Shown here piece by piece: positions 1,089-6,515 of a stretch of DNA of 6,515 nt. A program made the translations under genes and the position numbers. The DNA comes from an uncultured Treponema sp. (lineage in GTDB: Bacteria; Spirochaetota; Spirochaetia; Treponematales; Treponemataceae). Where the stretch lies: the NCBI GenBank assembly GCA_946403565.1, contig CAMJAJ010000083.1:1-6515 (forward strand), written 5' to 3'. Each line of letters begins with the position of its first letter. Positions within the stretch are counted from its first letter, which is position 1. Below the pieces are notes generated by a model. It was not told the origin of the DNA. It did no database searches and was given only the letters and a program-made list of their open reading frames with translations.

Positions 1089-1114
1089 CAGCCCTTTGCA
1101 ATACATGCTATTAT
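1085..1114 (+). promoter_or_regulatory. Sigma70-type promoter overlapping the sufS stop codon
   Basis: A perfect -35 hexamer TTGACA (1085-1090) is followed after 18 nt by TATTAT (1109-1114), a 5/6 match to the -10 consensus. The bases TGC just before it make an extended -10 (TGCTATTAT). The -35 overlaps the sufS TGA stop (1086-1088). With standard geometry, +1 falls at about 1121, the G of the GTG start of the next gene, so the transcript would be leaderless. This promoter separates the three-gene unit from the suf operon, although read-through from sufS remains possible because no terminator is visible. Confidence 0.72.
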
Positions 1115-1120
1115 GAGGCC

Positions 1121-2590
1121 GTGAATTCACGTTTGGAACTGCTGCTGGAACAGTTTCTGTCTACTCACCTGGAGGTGTTCACCCTCAAGGACGTCGAGGG
1201 CTTCCTCAAACGGTCCGGTGTCACCGCCTCCAGGGGGGACATACTGGACTGCATGGAGGACCTGCGCCTGGTCTTCCTCTTGTCCAACGGCTCTTTCATC
1301 AGCAGGGCGGGAGCCTTCACGGGCGAGCTGTTCAGCATAAAACCAAGCAGTTTCGAATTCGATGCAGGCGTGATGATTCCGGGGGACCGCTGCATGCCTT
1401 TCGTTCCTTCGGACATTCCTTCGGACGAGCTTACCTTCATCATCGACGGCCTTCGGCTTGTCCACAAGTCCGTCACGTGCGACAGCGACGAGGCCATAGA
1501 CAAGTTCATGCTGTATGGCGAGGAGTACGCGCCCCAGTATATCGCGGCTGATCCCGCCAACGAAGGGCTGGACGTCAAGGCCGTGTCCGGGGAGCTTTCG
1601 AATTACGTGCAGCTCACGGGATTCGACCTGTCGCCGCTGAAAGAGCGTTTCGCCTTTGACAAGGGGGACCGGCTTGTCTGCTCGGTCAAGGACTGGTCCA
1701 AGGGAATCATAGAATTCTTCATCCTGCATGACTCCAAGGACCGTTTCAATACGGGCGAGGTCGGGGAGAAGCGGCTCGAATGGTACAAAAAGCTGGAGGA
1801 GTTCCTGCTTGAGTCCTTCGAGCGTGCGGGCCCCTGCGCCTCCATAGAGGAGCAGCTGGAGTGCGTGTTCTTTGACCACCGGAAGGAGCTCTGCATTCCC
1901 GAATGCGGTTCGGTGGAGGAATTCCTGCTTGCCGGTTCTCGGAAGGTCGCCATAGAAAACTTTGGCGTGGAGACCCGCCTTTGGTACAAGGGAAAGAGCG
2001 CCCCCGCCATAGGGAGCTGGAATAAGGATTCGATTTCCTGGATAGACGGGGAACTGCGGTCGGTCGTCGGAAGGAATGTCAATTTCAACCTGCCCAAGGA
2101 GGTCCTGGACCAGGCGGTGCTCGACATGTACTACCGGCACAAGGACGATATCGCGGAGCTGTCCAGGAGTCTGTATCCGGATGACTACAGCTTCCATTCC
2201 GGTGAGCTGGAGCGCGTGCAGAAGGACCTGTGCAGGCGCGATACCCAGCTGAGGGGCGCTTACAACTGGTTCACCGACCAGCTTTCCGGGCCGATCCGGA
2301 GCTCCTCGCTCGAACTTTTCAAGAAGGTGAACGGACTCCTGTACAAGGTGGAGGCATGCGAGGGGGACCTGCAGGATTTCCCCCAGCAGGAGCTTGTCAT
2401 TCTGACCCAGCTCTACAGCCACCTGCTGAGCATTCTTTCCTGTAGTTATAGCGATAAAGATGTCGAAAATGAAAGTGAGGCCATCATGGTGTCTATTGAC
2501 GGCATGAAATGGAATTACGAGGATATAGAGGATATCCTGCTTGGAGCGATTGACGAAAACAACTGCAGCAGGTTCAAGGTGGTGAAGTGA
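1121..2590 (+). CDS. Uncharacterised 489-residue protein, first gene of an EIIA/membrane-protein operon
   Basis: I do not recognise this protein. It appears soluble: there is no signal peptide and no hydrophobic stretch long enough to span a membrane. Residues 1-65 look helical and end in a short beta hairpin (LVFLLSNGSFI), resembling a small winged-helix fold. Residues 66-110 (FSIKPSSFEFDAGVMIPG) look like a beta-rich barrel segment. Residues 215-235 and 330-440 are strongly helical, with charged heptad-like stretches. No catalytic motif is obvious. The GTG start at 1121 sits 6 nt after a -10 element. GAGG at 1115-1118 is only 2 nt from the start, too close to act as a Shine-Dalgarno. TTG 1133 is the alternative start. 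The frame stays open upstream to 857, but that part overlaps sufS and is rejected. The last 150 bases are visibly more AT-rich than the rest. The stop overlaps the EIIA start (GTGA), so the two are probably co-translated and functionally linked. Confidence 0.85.
   Translation: MNSRLELLLEQFLSTHLEVFTLKDVEGFLKRSGVTASRGDILDCMEDLRLVFLLSNGSFISRAGAFTGELFSIKPSSFEFDAGVMIPGDRCMPFVPSDIPSDELTFIIDGLRLVHKSVTCDSDEAIDKFMLYGEEYAPQYIAADPANEGLDVKAVSGELSNYVQLTGFDLSPLKERFAFDKGDRLVCSVKDWSKGIIEFFILHDSKDRFNTGEVGEKRLEWYKKLEEFLLESFERAGPCASIEEQLECVFFDHRKELCIPECGSVEEFLLAGSRKVAIENFGVETRLWYKGKSAPAIGSWNKDSISWIDGELRSVVGRNVNFNLPKEVLDQAVLDMYYRHKDDIAELSRSLYPDDYSFHSGELERVQKDLCRRDTQLRGAYNWFTDQLSGPIRSSSLELFKKVNGLLYKVEACEGDLQDFPQQELVILTQLYSHLLSILSCSYSDKDVENESEAIMVSIDGMKWNYEDIEDILLGAIDENNCSRFKVVK
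2576..2590 (+). promoter_or_regulatory. Shine-Dalgarno and GTGA coupling site for the EIIA gene
   Basis: AAGG at 2576-2579 lies 7 nt before GTG 2587. That GTG overlaps the TGA stop (2588-2590) of the upstream gene in a GTGA arrangement. The nearby ATG at 2593 would be 13 nt from the same AAGG, a poor distance, so GTG 2587 is preferred. The two starts differ by only two residues. Confidence 0.55.
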
Positions 2591-3060
2591 CTATGTTTTC
2601 AGCAGAAGATTTGTGTTCCCTGATACAGAAAGGCGGCGTGTTCAAGGACGTCGGAGGAACGACCGTCCAGGACGTGCTTTCGTCCGCGGTTTCCCTGATG
2701 AAGCTGCCGTCGGGTTTGGATGCCAAGCGCCTTCAGGATGAGCTTGTGGAGCGGGAGAAGATTTTGAGCACGGCCGTCGGAAACGGAATCGCCCTGCCGC
2801 ATCCGCACCGGAAGGTCATCGACGACCCCGCGGACCAGCGGATTGCGGTCTGCTTCCTGAAGGACCCCATCGACATGCAGGCTCCGGACAGCCGCAAGGT
2901 CTACGTCTACTTCATCCTGCTTACCTCGGCCTCACAGAAGCACCTTGATATCCTTTCGGGCATTGCGAACCTGGCCAAGGACCGGGAGTTCAAGGCCCTG
3001 CTCGAGACCCGGCCGGACGAGGCGACCCTGCTGGACGGAATCCGGAGGCGCATGGCGTGA
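2587..3060 (+). CDS. PTS EIIA type-2 domain protein (PtsN/fructose-type IIA)
   Basis: A stand-alone, 157-residue phosphotransferase EIIA domain of the fructose/mannitol/nitrogen class, expected to accept phosphate from HPr or NPr in the cytoplasm. The family signature E-R-E-x-x-x-S-T-A-V-G-N-G-I-A-L-P-H is complete at residues 55-72, with His72 as the phosphorylation site. The second conserved His is in SQKHLDILSGIANL (His119). The usual PHGR or PHA after the active His is replaced by PHPHR, adding a second His at position 74. The length equals that of PtsN. No EIIB or EIIC is fused or adjacent, so a regulatory role is more likely than sugar uptake, but this is inference. Start GTG 2587 is used because AAGG lies at a good distance; ATG 2593 is the alternative. 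The gene is coupled to its upstream neighbour by a GTGA overlap and to the downstream membrane gene by another. Confidence 0.9.
   Translation: MTMFSAEDLCSLIQKGGVFKDVGGTTVQDVLSSAVSLMKLPSGLDAKRLQDELVEREKILSTAVGNGIALPHPHRKVIDDPADQRIAVCFLKDPIDMQAPDSRKVYVYFILLTSASQKHLDILSGIANLAKDREFKALLETRPDEATLLDGIRRRMA
3044..3060 (+). promoter_or_regulatory. Shine-Dalgarno and GTGA coupling site for the membrane protein gene
   Basis: GGAGG at 3044-3048 lies 8 nt before GTG 3057. The GTG overlaps the EIIA stop TGA (3058-3060). This strong, well-spaced site decides the start and shows that canonical Shine-Dalgarno initiation operates in this organism for operon-internal genes. Confidence 0.75.
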
Positions 3061-4655
3061 CAGCCTCCGCGTTGCCGGGGCGGAAGCCCGCGTTGGCGGA
3101 TTTCTGCCTTGCCGCCTTCTCCCTGACGGTGGTCGTGATGACCGTCCTGCCCTTTTTCATCCTCTGCCGCTACAACCATCCGGGCGACAACGACAACTGG
3201 TGGATTTTCAGGACCTTCCTGGACAGATACTCGTATGACCTGTCGCCGGGAGGCTTCTTTTCGTTCCGGGGGGGCATCAACTTTGCGAACATCTTCTTCA
3301 TCCCCCTCTACCGGCATCCCGAGGGGATGACGGAAAGCCTGTTCCGCACCTTCATCAGCATCTACCACCTTTCCGCGGCCTTCTACGTCGGCCTCTTCTG
3401 GCTTTCCGCAAGCGTCCTGTTCATTGCGCTGAACCGTGCCCTGTTCCGCTTCAGGGGCTGCAGGGCCTTCTTCTTCTACGCCCTGTTCATCTATCTGGCC
3501 TTCAACTCCGTCCACTATCCGACGATGGCCTTCTACGACCTGGTCAGCAGCTCTGGCTACAATGCGGGACTGTCCTACCTGTTCCTCTTCCTCTCCTTTG
3601 CCCTGCTCGGCCGCACGTCGTCCGGGCGCTCGAGGCTCCTGTACGGCCTGCCCTGCGTCCTTTTCTTTTGCCTCTGCGCCTTCTCGATGGAGTACTATCC
3701 CTTCATCTGCGGCTGCTTCTCCTTTGCCTTCATCCTCTATGACCTGGTGAAGGCCCGCCGCCTGAACGTCCTGCATACGCTGTTCCTTGCCGTCTGCCTC
3801 CTGGCGTTCGCGCGGAATTTCCTGCTGGTCCGGGGGGAAATCACCCCGAACTCCGACGGCAACGTCGGGAAGTATACGGACGGGGAGGACCCTGGCTATA
3901 CGCTGGCCATCACCTTTGGGACCATGCTCGGGAGCCTGAAGGAGAGCTTCCTGCGCTATTTCCACCAGCTCGTGACGCAGCGCCGCTACCTGCCCGCCAT
4001 GGCGACGCTTTCCATCGGGGCCGCCCTGGCCATGCACCGGCGGGCCCTCCGCCTGCCGGTCTGGGCCGTGCTGCCTTTCTTCCTGGTCATCCTGGGGACC
4101 GCGGCGGTGTTCAGCTTCGCCACGCCGGACGTGTTCGTCATGCCGCGCTATGCCTGGACCCTGTTCGTCCTGATCTTCCTGTTCGTCGGCTCCCTGCTGG
4201 TGAGCCTTGTGAACTCGCTTGCCTTCGCCTTTGACAGGGCCCGTGCCGCCGATTCCGAGGGAGACTTTTCCCTCGTGCAGTCCGGCGTGGCGGCGGCCGT
4301 GCGGATATTCAGGCGCTGGATGGCCAGGCGGCCCCTTCTGATTGCCTTCACCGTGGCCGGCACCCTCCTGTTCTGCTTCTTTGCGCTGAAGAACGCCAAG
4401 TCCCCCGTGGCCACCGCCTGGAAGGACCTGCTCAAAGGCGAGGCTGCCGCATACGACCAGGAGTCGAGCGTCCGCTATGAGGCGATCTTTTCGGCAGGGG
4501 AGGGGGAGCCGGTCTACCTCGTGCCCATCCTGCACCGGCCGGCCAGCCTGTTCGTCAGGGATTCGATGGAGTTCGAGGCGGGCCGGATCACCTACCGGCG
4601 CTTCTTTGACAACGACAACATCTACTTCAAGGTCGGCGACCTGATCATCCGCTAG
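3057..4655 (+). CDS. Polytopic membrane protein, possibly GT-C/DUF6056-like
   Basis: A 532-residue inner-membrane protein with about 10-11 hydrophobic segments. Rough positions are 14-37, 105-128, 137-158, 171-186, 197-229, 238-258, 312-326, 334-354, 366-392 and 426-443, followed by a soluble tail of about 90 residues. The first long loop begins YNHPGDNDNWWIFR (residues 39-52) just after segment 1. Acidic residues in that first outer loop are typical of GT-C glycosyltransferases and of the DUF6056 family, so a role in transferring sugars to lipid or surface glycans is plausible but unproven. Other notable loop motifs are FSFRGGINFANIFFIPLYRH (68-87), which resembles the GR-containing loop of such proteins, and FATPDVFVMPRYAW (354-367). 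GTG 3057 is supported by GGAGG at 8 nt. The gene is the last of the coupled three-gene unit. Its 3' end overlaps the convergent helicase gene. A glycosyltransferase gene lies nearby, beyond the helicase. Confidence 0.85.
   Translation: MTASALPGRKPALADFCLAAFSLTVVVMTVLPFFILCRYNHPGDNDNWWIFRTFLDRYSYDLSPGGFFSFRGGINFANIFFIPLYRHPEGMTESLFRTFISIYHLSAAFYVGLFWLSASVLFIALNRALFRFRGCRAFFFYALFIYLAFNSVHYPTMAFYDLVSSSGYNAGLSYLFLFLSFALLGRTSSGRSRLLYGLPCVLFFCLCAFSMEYYPFICGCFSFAFILYDLVKARRLNVLHTLFLAVCLLAFARNFLLVRGEITPNSDGNVGKYTDGEDPGYTLAITFGTMLGSLKESFLRYFHQLVTQRRYLPAMATLSIGAALAMHRRALRLPVWAVLPFFLVILGTAAVFSFATPDVFVMPRYAWTLFVLIFLFVGSLLVSLVNSLAFAFDRARAADSEGDFSLVQSGVAAAVRIFRRWMARRPLLIAFTVAGTLLFCFFALKNAKSPVATAWKDLLKGEAAAYDQESSVRYEAIFSAGEGEPVYLVPILHRPASLFVRDSMEFEAGRITYRRFFDNDNIYFKVGDLIIR
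4645..4655. other. 11-bp tail-to-tail overlap of two convergent genes
   Basis: The membrane protein gene ends at TAG 4653-4655 on the + strand and the helicase gene ends at TGA 4647-4645 on the - strand. The last codons of both genes share 11 bp. No intergenic space exists for a conventional terminator, so each transcript must end inside, or run through, the other gene. Confidence 0.85.
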
Positions 4656-5808
4656 GCTGCTCCTCCTGCGGCGGGGCGACCAGCCGCCCCTTGTAGAGGG
4701 CCTTGGGGTAGACCGTCAGTCCGAGGCTTTTTTCAAACGAGGCGAACCTCCGCATCTCCCGCTCGTCACCGATGACGCAGTTGAATCCCTTCCGGCCCGC
4801 CCGGCCCGTCCGGCCCGCCCGGTGGATGAAGAAGTCCTTCTCCTCGGGCAGGTCCATCTGCACGACATGGGTGACGCCCGCGATGTCCAGCCCGCGGGCC
4901 GCGACGTCGGTCGTCACCAGGATCTTGCACCTGCCGCCCTTGAAGCTGTCCCAGGCCTCCTTGCGCCGTTTCTTGTCCGTCTTTGCCCCCAGGCCCTCGC
5001 AGTCTATGTGCTTGTAGCGGAGCTTGGAGACGATGTTCTCCACCTGGTCCAGGCGGCTGGTGAACACGAGCATCTTCTGGGCGCTTATGGCCCGGATGAA
5101 CGAGCGCAGCGTGTCTATCTTGTCCCGCCGCTCGGCGAACAGCGCCCAGTGCTCTATCCGTGAGCGGAGCACGTCCTCCGCCGGCAGCTCCACCAGGTCT
5201 ATCTCGTCCTTTATGCGGGCCTCCATGATGATTTTCCTCGTGTACGAGCTGACGGTGGCCGAATTCCCGATGAGCTGCACGTCCTTGGGTAGGCGGGCAA
5301 TCATCCCCTCCGTGGCCTCCCGCAGCTCCGGCGAGAGCAGGCGGTCCGCCTCGTCCAGCACGAGCGCGCGTATACCTTCGGCCTTCAGCTTCTTCAAGTG
5401 GATCAGCTCCAGGAGCCGCGCCGCGCTGCCGATGACGATGCCGGGCTTCTCCTTGAGCTTTTCGACCTGCCGGTTTATGGGGGCACCGCCCACCAGCAGG
5501 GCGCTCCCCACGTCGGTGCAGAGCTTGACCTGGTCCCGAATCTGGGAGCAGAGCTCCAGCGTCGGGGAGACGATGAGCAGCTTCACCTGCCTGCGGGGGT
5601 CCGCCTCCTTGAACAGGGTCTGGATCAGGGGCAGCAGGTAGGCGAAGGTCTTGCCGGTCCCTGTCTCACTTTGGAACAGGACGTTCCTGCCTTCCGCCAC
5701 GATGGGGATGACCTTCTCCTGCACCGGGGTCGCCTCCCGTATCCCGATGGCCTCGAGCTTCGTTACCAGCTCCTTTTCTATGCCTAACTCCGTGAATGTC
5801 TTGCTCAT
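4645..5808 (-). CDS. DEAD-box ATP-dependent RNA helicase
   Basis: A compact 387-residue DEAD-box helicase that uses ATP to unwind or remodel RNA in the cytoplasm, in ribosome assembly, RNA decay or cold adaptation in known relatives. All core motifs are present in order: Q motif (Phe5 and ATPVQ, Gln30), motif I SETGTGKT (47-54), motif II DEAD (152-155), motif III SAT (183-185), motif IV LVFTSR (247-252), motif V ARGLDI (304-309) and motif VI HRAGRTGR (329-336). Two motifs are unusual: Ia is PTLEL instead of PTREL, and Ib is GSAARLL instead of TPGRL. Only about 50 residues follow motif VI, so there is no long RNA-binding tail of the DbpA/CsdA kind, and the specific target cannot be named. ATG 5808 is chosen because it lies 6 nt after a -10 element and begins the conserved MSKTFTELGI. 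ATG 5814 (two residues longer) and a TTG at 5874 are less likely. The gene is divergent from the glycosyltransferase gene. Confidence 0.95.
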   Translation of the reverse strand: MSKTFTELGIEKELVTKLEAIGIREATPVQEKVIPIVAEGRNVLFQSETGTGKTFAYLLPLIQTLFKEADPRRQVKLLIVSPTLELCSQIRDQVKLCTDVGSALLVGGAPINRQVEKLKEKPGIVIGSAARLLELIHLKKLKAEGIRALVLDEADRLLSPELREATEGMIARLPKDVQLIGNSATVSSYTRKIIMEARIKDEIDLVELPAEDVLRSRIEHWALFAERRDKIDTLRSFIRAISAQKMLVFTSRLDQVENIVSKLRYKHIDCEGLGAKTDKKRRKEAWDSFKGGRCKILVTTDVAARGLDIAGVTHVVQMDLPEEKDFFIHRAGRTGRAGRKGFNCVIGDEREMRRFASFEKSLGLTVYPKALYKGRLVAPPQEEQPSG

Positions 5809-5810
5809 AG

Positions 5811-5846
5811 GCATACTATAGCATTTTTTCTCGTTTTGTGGTATGC
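5811..5846. repeat. Short inverted repeat GCATAC/GTATGC in the divergent promoter region
   Basis: GCATAC (5811-5816) and GTATGC (5841-5846) are perfect inverted 6-bp arms separated by 24 bp. Each arm overlaps a -10 element, one of the helicase promoter and one of the glycosyltransferase promoter. It could be an operator for joint control of the divergent pair. With arms of only 6 bp, chance similarity of two promoter regions is an equally good explanation. Confidence 0.3.
5815..5823 (-). promoter_or_regulatory. Extended -10 promoter element of the helicase gene
   Basis: Read on the - strand, TGC (5823-5821) plus TATAGT (5820-5815) forms an extended -10, 5/6 in the hexamer. It ends 6 nt before ATG 5808, so +1 falls on the A of that ATG. 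No good -35 is seen, which is normal for extended -10 promoters. No Shine-Dalgarno precedes either ATG 5808 or ATG 5814. Confidence 0.55.
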
Positions 5847-5847
5847 T
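5839..5847 (+). promoter_or_regulatory. Extended -10 promoter element of the glycosyltransferase gene
   Basis: TGG (5839-5841) plus TATGCT (5842-5847) matches TGNTATNNT and ends 7 nt before ATG 5855. Predicted +1 is 5854-5855, leaving an mRNA leader of 0-1 nt. The hexamer is 4/6, weaker than the other two, and no clear -35 is visible. The region between the two divergent starts is AT-rich and contains no Shine-Dalgarno in this direction. Confidence 0.45.
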
Positions 5848-5854
5848 TTTGCCA

Positions 5855-6515
5855 ATGAAAGTTGGAATCGACACCTTTGGCTGTGATAATGGTCGCTCGG
5901 GCCGCGGCTCCTACCTTGCGTCGCTCATAAACGCCCTGCCAGAGGATTCCGGCCTGTCCTGGGAGCTGTTTGGCCCCGAGGTGGACAGGTATACCTATAC
6001 CGAGGAGAAGGCGCTTCCGTTCACGTCAGTGCACCTGCCCGACAGCCTGAACATGGAGCGCCTGTGGCACCTGCTGAACTTGGGCTCGTTCTCCCGGAAA
6101 CGCTCCTACGACGCCATAATTTTCGCCGCCGGACTCCAGCTGCTTCCCCTGGGCTATAAGAAGCCGGGAATCGTCATCGTGAACGACGTCCTCTCCTCAT
6201 TCCTTGCGAACGAGGAATCGGGCCTGTACCGGAGGCTCCTGCTCCAGTCGCTGGGCAGGGCGGACTGCATCATTGCGGGAAGCGACTACATCAGGCAGGA
6301 CCTGGAGCGGTGCAAGGTCAAGGCCAGGCGCCTGGAGGTGGTCTACAGCGGCATTGACCACGGCACCTTCACGAACCTCGGCAAGTCCGAAAGCTCCGTC
6401 GTGGACATAAAGCCCTTTGCCATCAAGAAGCCCTACCTCATCTACCCCAGCAGGATGCAGGGGGAGGCGAAGAAGCACATAGAGCTCATAAAGGCATTTT
6501 CCCTCTTCAAGGAGC
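5855..6515 (+). CDS. GT4-type (GT-B fold) glycosyltransferase, 3' end cut off by window
   Basis: A probable cytoplasmic or membrane-associated glycosyltransferase that moves a sugar from a nucleotide-sugar donor to a glycan or lipid acceptor. The frame is open from ATG 5855 to the window edge, giving 220 residues. MKVGIDTFG followed by GRSGRGSYLASLINAL (residues 13-28) is the N-terminal Rossmann start with its glycine-rich loop. The family's inter-domain signature follows: CIIAGSDYIRQDL (138-150), then VVYSGIDHGTF (162-172). YLIYPSRMQGEAKKHIELIKAF (194-215) begins the second domain, where GT4 members carry a G-R-x-x-x-x-K-x-x-x-x-x-I-x-A-F motif. The donor-binding E-x7-E motif should lie beyond the window. 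VND at 109-111 stands where many GT4 enzymes have HD. The start is the first Met, preceded by an extended -10 and no Shine-Dalgarno. The acceptor and sugar cannot be told from this fragment. Confidence 0.88.
   Translation, partial: MKVGIDTFGCDNGRSGRGSYLASLINALPEDSGLSWELFGPEVDRYTYTEEKALPFTSVHLPDSLNMERLWHLLNLGSFSRKRSYDAIIFAAGLQLLPLGYKKPGIVIVNDVLSSFLANEESGLYRRLLLQSLGRADCIIAGSDYIRQDLERCKVKARRLEVVYSGIDHGTFTNLGKSESSVVDIKPFAIKKPYLIYPSRMQGEAKKHIELIKAFSLFKE

Follow-up and report, generated by a model that had tools for sequence, protein, structure and literature searches.

Extended -10 elements directly before three start codons in an uncultured Treponema: predicted leaderless transcripts

The stretch analysed here, 6,515 nucleotides (nt) of contig CAMJAJ010000083.1 from an uncultured Treponema sp. 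(hereafter the window; 61% GC), contains three gene starts, those of orf2, a DEAD-box RNA helicase gene and a glycosyltransferase gene, that each follow an extended -10 promoter element at a distance of 6-7 nt. An earlier interpretation made from the letters of the window without database searches (the sequence-only reading) had proposed that the mRNAs of these genes are leaderless. The features concerned are as follows.

1085-1090, + strand: -35 element TTGACA of the orf2 promoter, a perfect hexamer that overlaps the stop codon of the preceding sufS-type gene, with an 18 nt spacer to the -10 element
1106-1114, + strand: extended -10 element TGCTATTAT of orf2, ending 6 nt before GTG 1121
1121-2590, + strand: orf2, 489 amino acids, GTG start, predicted leaderless
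4645-5808, - strand: DEAD-box RNA helicase gene, predicted leaderless
5809-5854: interval with two back-to-back promoters, in which each -10 element sits in the -35 region of the other promoter
5815-5823, - strand: extended -10 element TGCTATAGT of the helicase gene, ending 6 nt before ATG 5808
5839-5847, + strand: extended -10 element TGGTATGCT of the glycosyltransferase gene, ending 7 nt before ATG 5855
5855-6514, + strand: glycosyltransferase family 4 gene, running off the window, predicted leader of 0-1 nt

The three -10 elements lie where the sequence-only reading had placed them and at the distances that it had given, and direct reading of the window and of the orthologues likewise bears out its statement that all three starts lack a usable Shine-Dalgarno sequence; a GAGG at 1115-1118 is only 2 nt before the orf2 GTG at 1121, and is absent from three orthologues. 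The pattern TG.TA...T occurs four times in the window when both strands are counted, and three of these occurrences end 6-7 nt before a gene start. The density-based chance of such a placement at three or more of five starts is 2e-9, and 2e-6 for the looser pattern TA...T with its 37 occurrences in the window, both of which values are optimistic in that the motif was picked after looking; the estimate takes in five genes with six start positions, the ptsN-like gene having two candidate starts.

A scan with the helicase identified 73 loci, the best five of which (L001-L005, 82-86% identity) carry the titles of Treponema or uncultured Spirochaetaceae metagenome-assembled genomes (MAGs) and are the nearest relatives found; the gene order of the window is common to all five as far as their contigs extend. 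The helicase -10 element TGCTATAGT and its 6 nt spacing are identical in the five orthologues. The glycosyltransferase element reads TGRTATGCT in all five, 7 nt before the start in L001-L003 and 6 nt before it in L004 and L005, and that of orf2 reads TGYTADTAT at 6 nt before the GTG in three of three orthologues, the individual elements, all at the same distance, being TGTTAGTAT, TGTTATTAT and TGCTAATAT. The orf2 GTG itself and the residues V-N-S are also kept in the three orthologues whose contigs extend there. While the -10 elements and their distances stay fixed among the orthologues, the spacer bases mostly vary. To these elements can be added the -35 hexamer of orf2, which the sequence-only reading did not mention; the orf2 promoter matches the consensus at 11 of 12 positions, and its TTGACA is kept in L001, L002 and L004. 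Because this hexamer lies across the sufS stop codon and three relatives retain it, the 3' end of sufS is held by the promoter of the next gene.

Genome-wide tests were made in the genomes of relatives rather than in that of the window, and the relatives sampled have GC contents of 47-55%, below that of the window. As a spacing control, we counted TGNTATNNT-N6-ATG in each genome against the same sequence with N12. The 80 genomes from the family of G004, a Treponema MAG, contain 3905 N6 sites and 1629 N12 sites, with N6 the higher in 79 of the 80 and p < 0.01 in 61. A phylum sample of 92 genomes, none of them from the family sample and some of which may still belong to the family, gave 3935 against 3483, a ratio of 1.13, with N6 higher in 62 genomes and p < 0.01 in five; 15 genomes reached through other loci (15 of 16 loci were used, L025 being left out) gave 843 against 692. 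The excess in 79 of 80 family genomes, set against the ratio of 1.13 in the phylum sample, indicates that the enrichment is concentrated in the family of G004, and on the same ratio we reject a phylum-wide trait of TGn-type promoter shape; leaderless promoters of another shape would escape the TGn pattern, and Leptospira may be a case of this. Three of the 15 genomes reached through other loci also had an N6/N12 excess of two- to threefold, namely G093, G095 and G098 (the genomes of loci L038, L042 and L062), which are a Parabacteroides, a Streptococcus sanguinis and a proteobacterial MAG.

The sequence-only reading had further expected the motif to peak 6-7 nt before the heads of transcription units when these are compared with internal genes, and blind samples of two relatives agree with it: in G004 and G023 together, TAnnnT lies at 6-7 nt before 46 of 416 heads and 2 of 204 internal genes (p = 1e-6), with 17 and 16 of the 416 heads carrying it at two control distances. 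The G004 part of this set (41 contigs chosen by number, C1-C41, first 20 kb, 504 kb in all) contributes 27 of 211 heads, with 4 and 4 at the control distances, against 2 of 114 internal genes (p = 4e-4), and none of 90 internal genes in G023 has the motif at 6-7 nt. Among the blind heads, approximately 11% thus have TAnnnT at 6-7 nt and approximately 4% at the control distances, an excess of about 7% over background. In a first G004 sample (741 kb on 16 contigs, all of which appear in the match listing), TAnnnT at a distance of exactly 6 nt preceded 21 of 168 divergent heads, 14 of 193 heads that follow a gap of more than 80 nt, and 3 of 139 internal genes. When it was pooled with G002 and G023, the motif was found at 6-7 nt before 73 of 614 heads (33 and 29 at the two control distances) and 3 of 264 internal genes (p = 5e-9), these first pooled samples being partly biased by the match-selected G004 contigs.

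The spacing is also kept at genes other than those of the window. Among 59 sites in G002, 52 head an open reading frame (ORF) of at least 60 amino acids, some of which run off the stretch, and seven with shorter ORFs were dropped. Comparison of the 52 genes with the first G004 sample gave a match for 17 and none for 35, and 14 of the 17 passed our orthologue filter; all 14, which correspond to 11 distinct G004 genes including the helicase gene itself, keep TAnnnT before the ATG, at 6 nt in 11 and 7 nt in three, in a sample that is partly biased. Two of the three matches below the filter also have TAnnnT at 6 nt and the third does not. In the blind G004 sample, ten of the 52 genes had a match and six passed, of which four keep TAnnnT at 6 nt; these four represent two distinct G004 genes, both of a transposase-like family. 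Of the two failures, one carries a weaker box, TGCTATACC, at 6 nt, and the other has a misplaced extrapolated start (the alignment begins at residue 4), with an exact site, TGATATACTTTTCGCATG, present on that contig (C24). Ten G002 proteins with spacing-keeping orthologues include a phosphofructokinase, a UDP-sugar dehydrogenase, an FHA protein, a nucleoside phosphorylase-type enzyme, a peptidase, a histidine kinase and a transposase-like nuclease. The transposase-like (PDDEXK_2) family has the -10/ATG arrangement in several copies (L181, L190, L195 and L210 in G002, together with G004 matches), and thus a mobile family also uses such starts.

Signals on which the sites had not been selected were read in 51 of the 52 G002 genes (one lacks 60 upstream bases), with the A of the ATG taken as +1. 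Positions -35 to -33 have T in 78%, T in 55% and G in 45% of the genes, marking a -35 signal at -35 to -30, and at least four matches to TTGACA are present in 34 of the 51 genes against approximately seven expected. Position -1 is C or T in 88% and G in none. The -35 and -1 signals have the geometry that would be expected if RNA polymerase starts on the A of the ATG.

The proposal of leaderless mRNAs fits the footprints in the orthologues, the contrast between heads and internal genes, the spacing control in 80 genomes and the -35 and -1 signals, the 5' ends being predicted, and we put the probability that the transcripts of orf2, the helicase gene and the glycosyltransferase gene are leaderless or have a 1 nt leader at roughly 0.85. 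The three elements would be housekeeping sigma-70-type promoters from which transcription begins at the first base of the start codon or 1 nt before it, and the ribosome would begin on the 5'-terminal start codon without Shine-Dalgarno contact. At the 7 nt spacing of the glycosyltransferase gene, a 1 nt leader starting on the purine just before the ATG is possible. The same arrangement would serve a minority of transcription units in the family of G004, nearly always with ATG, and the GTG of orf2 would be an exception.

It is unlikely, in our view, that the elements are real -10 boxes of secondary promoters only, with the main transcripts starting upstream and having leaders, or with orf2 being read through from sufS. 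Some read-through may exist too, as orf2 follows sufS on the same strand after only 32 nt, and no terminator-like site is listed in that gap. Only 45-46 bp, however, lie between the starts of the helicase and glycosyltransferase genes, so that an upstream promoter for either would lie inside the other gene; the lack of a Shine-Dalgarno sequence at any of the three starts speaks against leadered transcripts, and the kept distance between -10 element and start would be left unexplained. Considerably less probable still is a misassignment of the start codons, with the true starts upstream and the motif being coding sequence. All six sequences do have an in-frame ATG or GTG 6 nt ahead of the helicase start, and ATG 5843 shares the glycosyltransferase reading frame in the window and in L001-L003, but it does not do so in L004 and L005, which fixes the predicted glycosyltransferase start at ATG 5855; the helicase frame has an in-frame TAA shortly upstream in the same two relatives, and the orf2 frame has an in-frame TAG within the motif in L001. 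Moreover, a start codon directly after the -10 hexamer would be missing from a transcript made there. That AT-rich hexamers lie before these starts by chance we consider next to negligible, since TAnnnT is common enough, with 37 occurrences, but the 61% GC window has only four TG.TA...T, three of them at starts, and both the conservation in orthologues and the 6 nt enrichment in relatives speak against chance.

Several observations weigh against leaderless transcripts at the three genes. The 5' ends and the mode of initiation are both inferred from sequence. The helicase and glycosyltransferase promoters have poor matches to the -35 consensus and were not listed by a promoter scan, and the bases of the interval between these genes serve two promoters, so that their conservation is not fully independent. 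The gene starts in the relatives come from our own hexamer-based gene finder, which is unvalidated; exact sites are approximately 1.7-fold denser in the first G004 sample (26 in 741 kb) than in the genome overall (79 in about 3.8 Mb), and the blind G023 block taken alone has a small excess, with 19 of 205 heads against 13 and 12 at the control distances. GTG sites in the family are barely enriched (956 with N6 against 858 with N12), which weakens the case for orf2, and we reject general leaderless use of GTG on these counts. Leaderless starts in the family would thus be almost only ATG, which makes the conserved GTG of orf2 unusual; its promoter is the best of the three despite the GTG start.

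The remaining genes of the window bear on a second proposal of the sequence-only reading, that the organism divides initiation between leaderless first genes and internal genes led by Shine-Dalgarno sequences.

1086-1088: stop codon of a sufS-type cysteine desulfurase gene, of which the window has the 3' end only
2593-3060, + strand: ptsN-like gene of the phosphotransferase system (PTS) EIIA type (PF00359, 78 bits), an internal gene of the orf2 unit
3057-4655, + strand: orf4, 532 amino acids, an internal gene whose GTG overlaps the ptsN stop codon (GTGA)

Neither orf2 nor orf4 has a Pfam or NCBIfam match, and these two family-less genes flank the PTS EIIA gene also in the relatives with contigs that are long enough. 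The orf4 and helicase genes are convergent, with 3' ends that overlap by 11 bp (4645-4655), and their orthologue matches likewise end near each other or overlap.

The Shine-Dalgarno sites quoted for the internal genes of the window, AAGG at 7 nt and GGAGG at 8 nt, are poorly conserved in the orthologues. The AAGG site serves GTG 2587, which reads GTA in L004, and ATG 2593 is kept in the four orthologues shown; L001, L002 and L003 lack the GGAGG before orf4, which is GGAG in L005, and in L004 the position of the orf4 start, extrapolated from an alignment that begins at residue 12, is not a start codon. Given the GTGA overlap at 3057-3060, translational coupling of orf4 would be as likely as Shine-Dalgarno initiation. 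A five-base Shine-Dalgarno match is present in G004 at 21-28% of heads and 46-47% of internal genes, in G002 at 22% and 44% of heads against 54% of internal genes, and in G023 at 30-36% of heads against 29% of internal genes, where the contrast is absent. One half of the proposed division is therefore retained, in that the motif occurs at heads and is near-absent internally (46/416 against 2/204); the other is not, as heads mostly without and internal genes mostly with a Shine-Dalgarno sequence were not found, and few heads (11%) carry the motif. With Shine-Dalgarno use higher internally in G004 and G002 and not in G023, the division is a tendency and not a rule. Searches for the anti-Shine-Dalgarno tail of 16S rRNA gave no 16S match in five of six genomes, and the tail was not found in G023.

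The interval between the helicase and glycosyltransferase starts measures 46 bp in the window and in L001-L003, and is 1 bp shorter, at 45 bp, in L004 and L005. Since each -10 element lies at the place of the other's -35 element, the two promoters interlock, and polymerases at them should exclude each other; the pair offers a small natural system in which promoter interference can be studied without leaders. A palindromic operator GCATAC...GTATGC between the two genes was considered and rejected, as it is broken in L002 and L005. Seven of 84 divergent pairs in G004 have starts 30-75 bp apart, and in two of the seven, one of them the helicase/glycosyltransferase pair, TAnnnT lies at 4-11 nt on both sides, numbers that are too few to judge.

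We lean somewhat towards a broader interpretation, in which the family of G004 has specifically expanded AUG-fused -35/-10 promoters, with a predicted +1 at the A of the start codon, that serve genes of metabolism and regulation, almost always with ATG and with at least one interlocking divergent leaderless pair (45-46 bp), the enrichment being absent from most of the other genomes in the phylum sample. Leaderless initiation, known elsewhere, looks unusually common in the Treponema branch of the spirochaetes. This is a testable prediction for treponemes that would improve the calling of gene starts there, and it singles out a lineage whose use of leaderless starts seems to have increased relative to its own phylum.

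In Deinococcus and the mycobacteria, leaderless first genes have a -10 element directly before the start codon. The Actinobacteria use GTG and ATG alike at leaderless starts, whereas in the Treponema family only ATG is clearly enriched. The leaderless kind of mRNA is itself already known, also in the phylum Spirochaetes; leaderless genes have been predicted in six of 18 Spirochaetes genomes, with a mean of 3.9% of genes (1.8-6.9%) (Zheng et al., 2011; PMC3160421), and counts for Deinococcus and mycobacteria are cited in PMC5243855. In a comparison of non-Shine-Dalgarno genes, as excerpted, six Spirochaetes have a mean of -3.25 on the component linked with an AT-rich signal near positions -20 to -10 (PMC5397173), and thus no such signal on average. 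A literature search by title and abstract opening, in one part covering the best 12 of 442 matches, found no paper on leaderless mRNAs in Treponema and no Treponema transcript-end map; PMC9200625, on Treponema pallidum and with eight uses of 'leaderless', was judged by its title alone to be on antimicrobial peptides, and the sole 'leaderless' in the excerpts of a T. pallidum proteome paper (PMC12687308) is in a reference title. The same titles and abstract openings did not include the enrichment in the Treponema family, the restriction to ATG or the conserved divergent pair.

Two of the closest parallels are found in earlier studies, as far as their excerpted sections go. The TA-led leaderless genes of Zheng et al. 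(2011; PMC3160421), with TANNNT approximately 12 bp before the start, have the same placement as the Treponema elements; the word 'Treponema' is absent from the main text of that paper, and the present case adds the conservation in orthologues, the -35 and -1 signals and, in one family, an enrichment exceeding that of the remaining phylum sample. Leptospira interrogans is likewise a spirochaete with many leaderless mRNAs, differential RNA-seq having identified approximately 440 that are leaderless or have a leader shorter than 10 nt (PMC5243855). Transcript ends were measured there and are predicted in Treponema, and while no common promoter motif other than that of sigma-54 was reported for L. 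interrogans (PMC5243855), the Treponema set has both an extended -10 and a -35 element.

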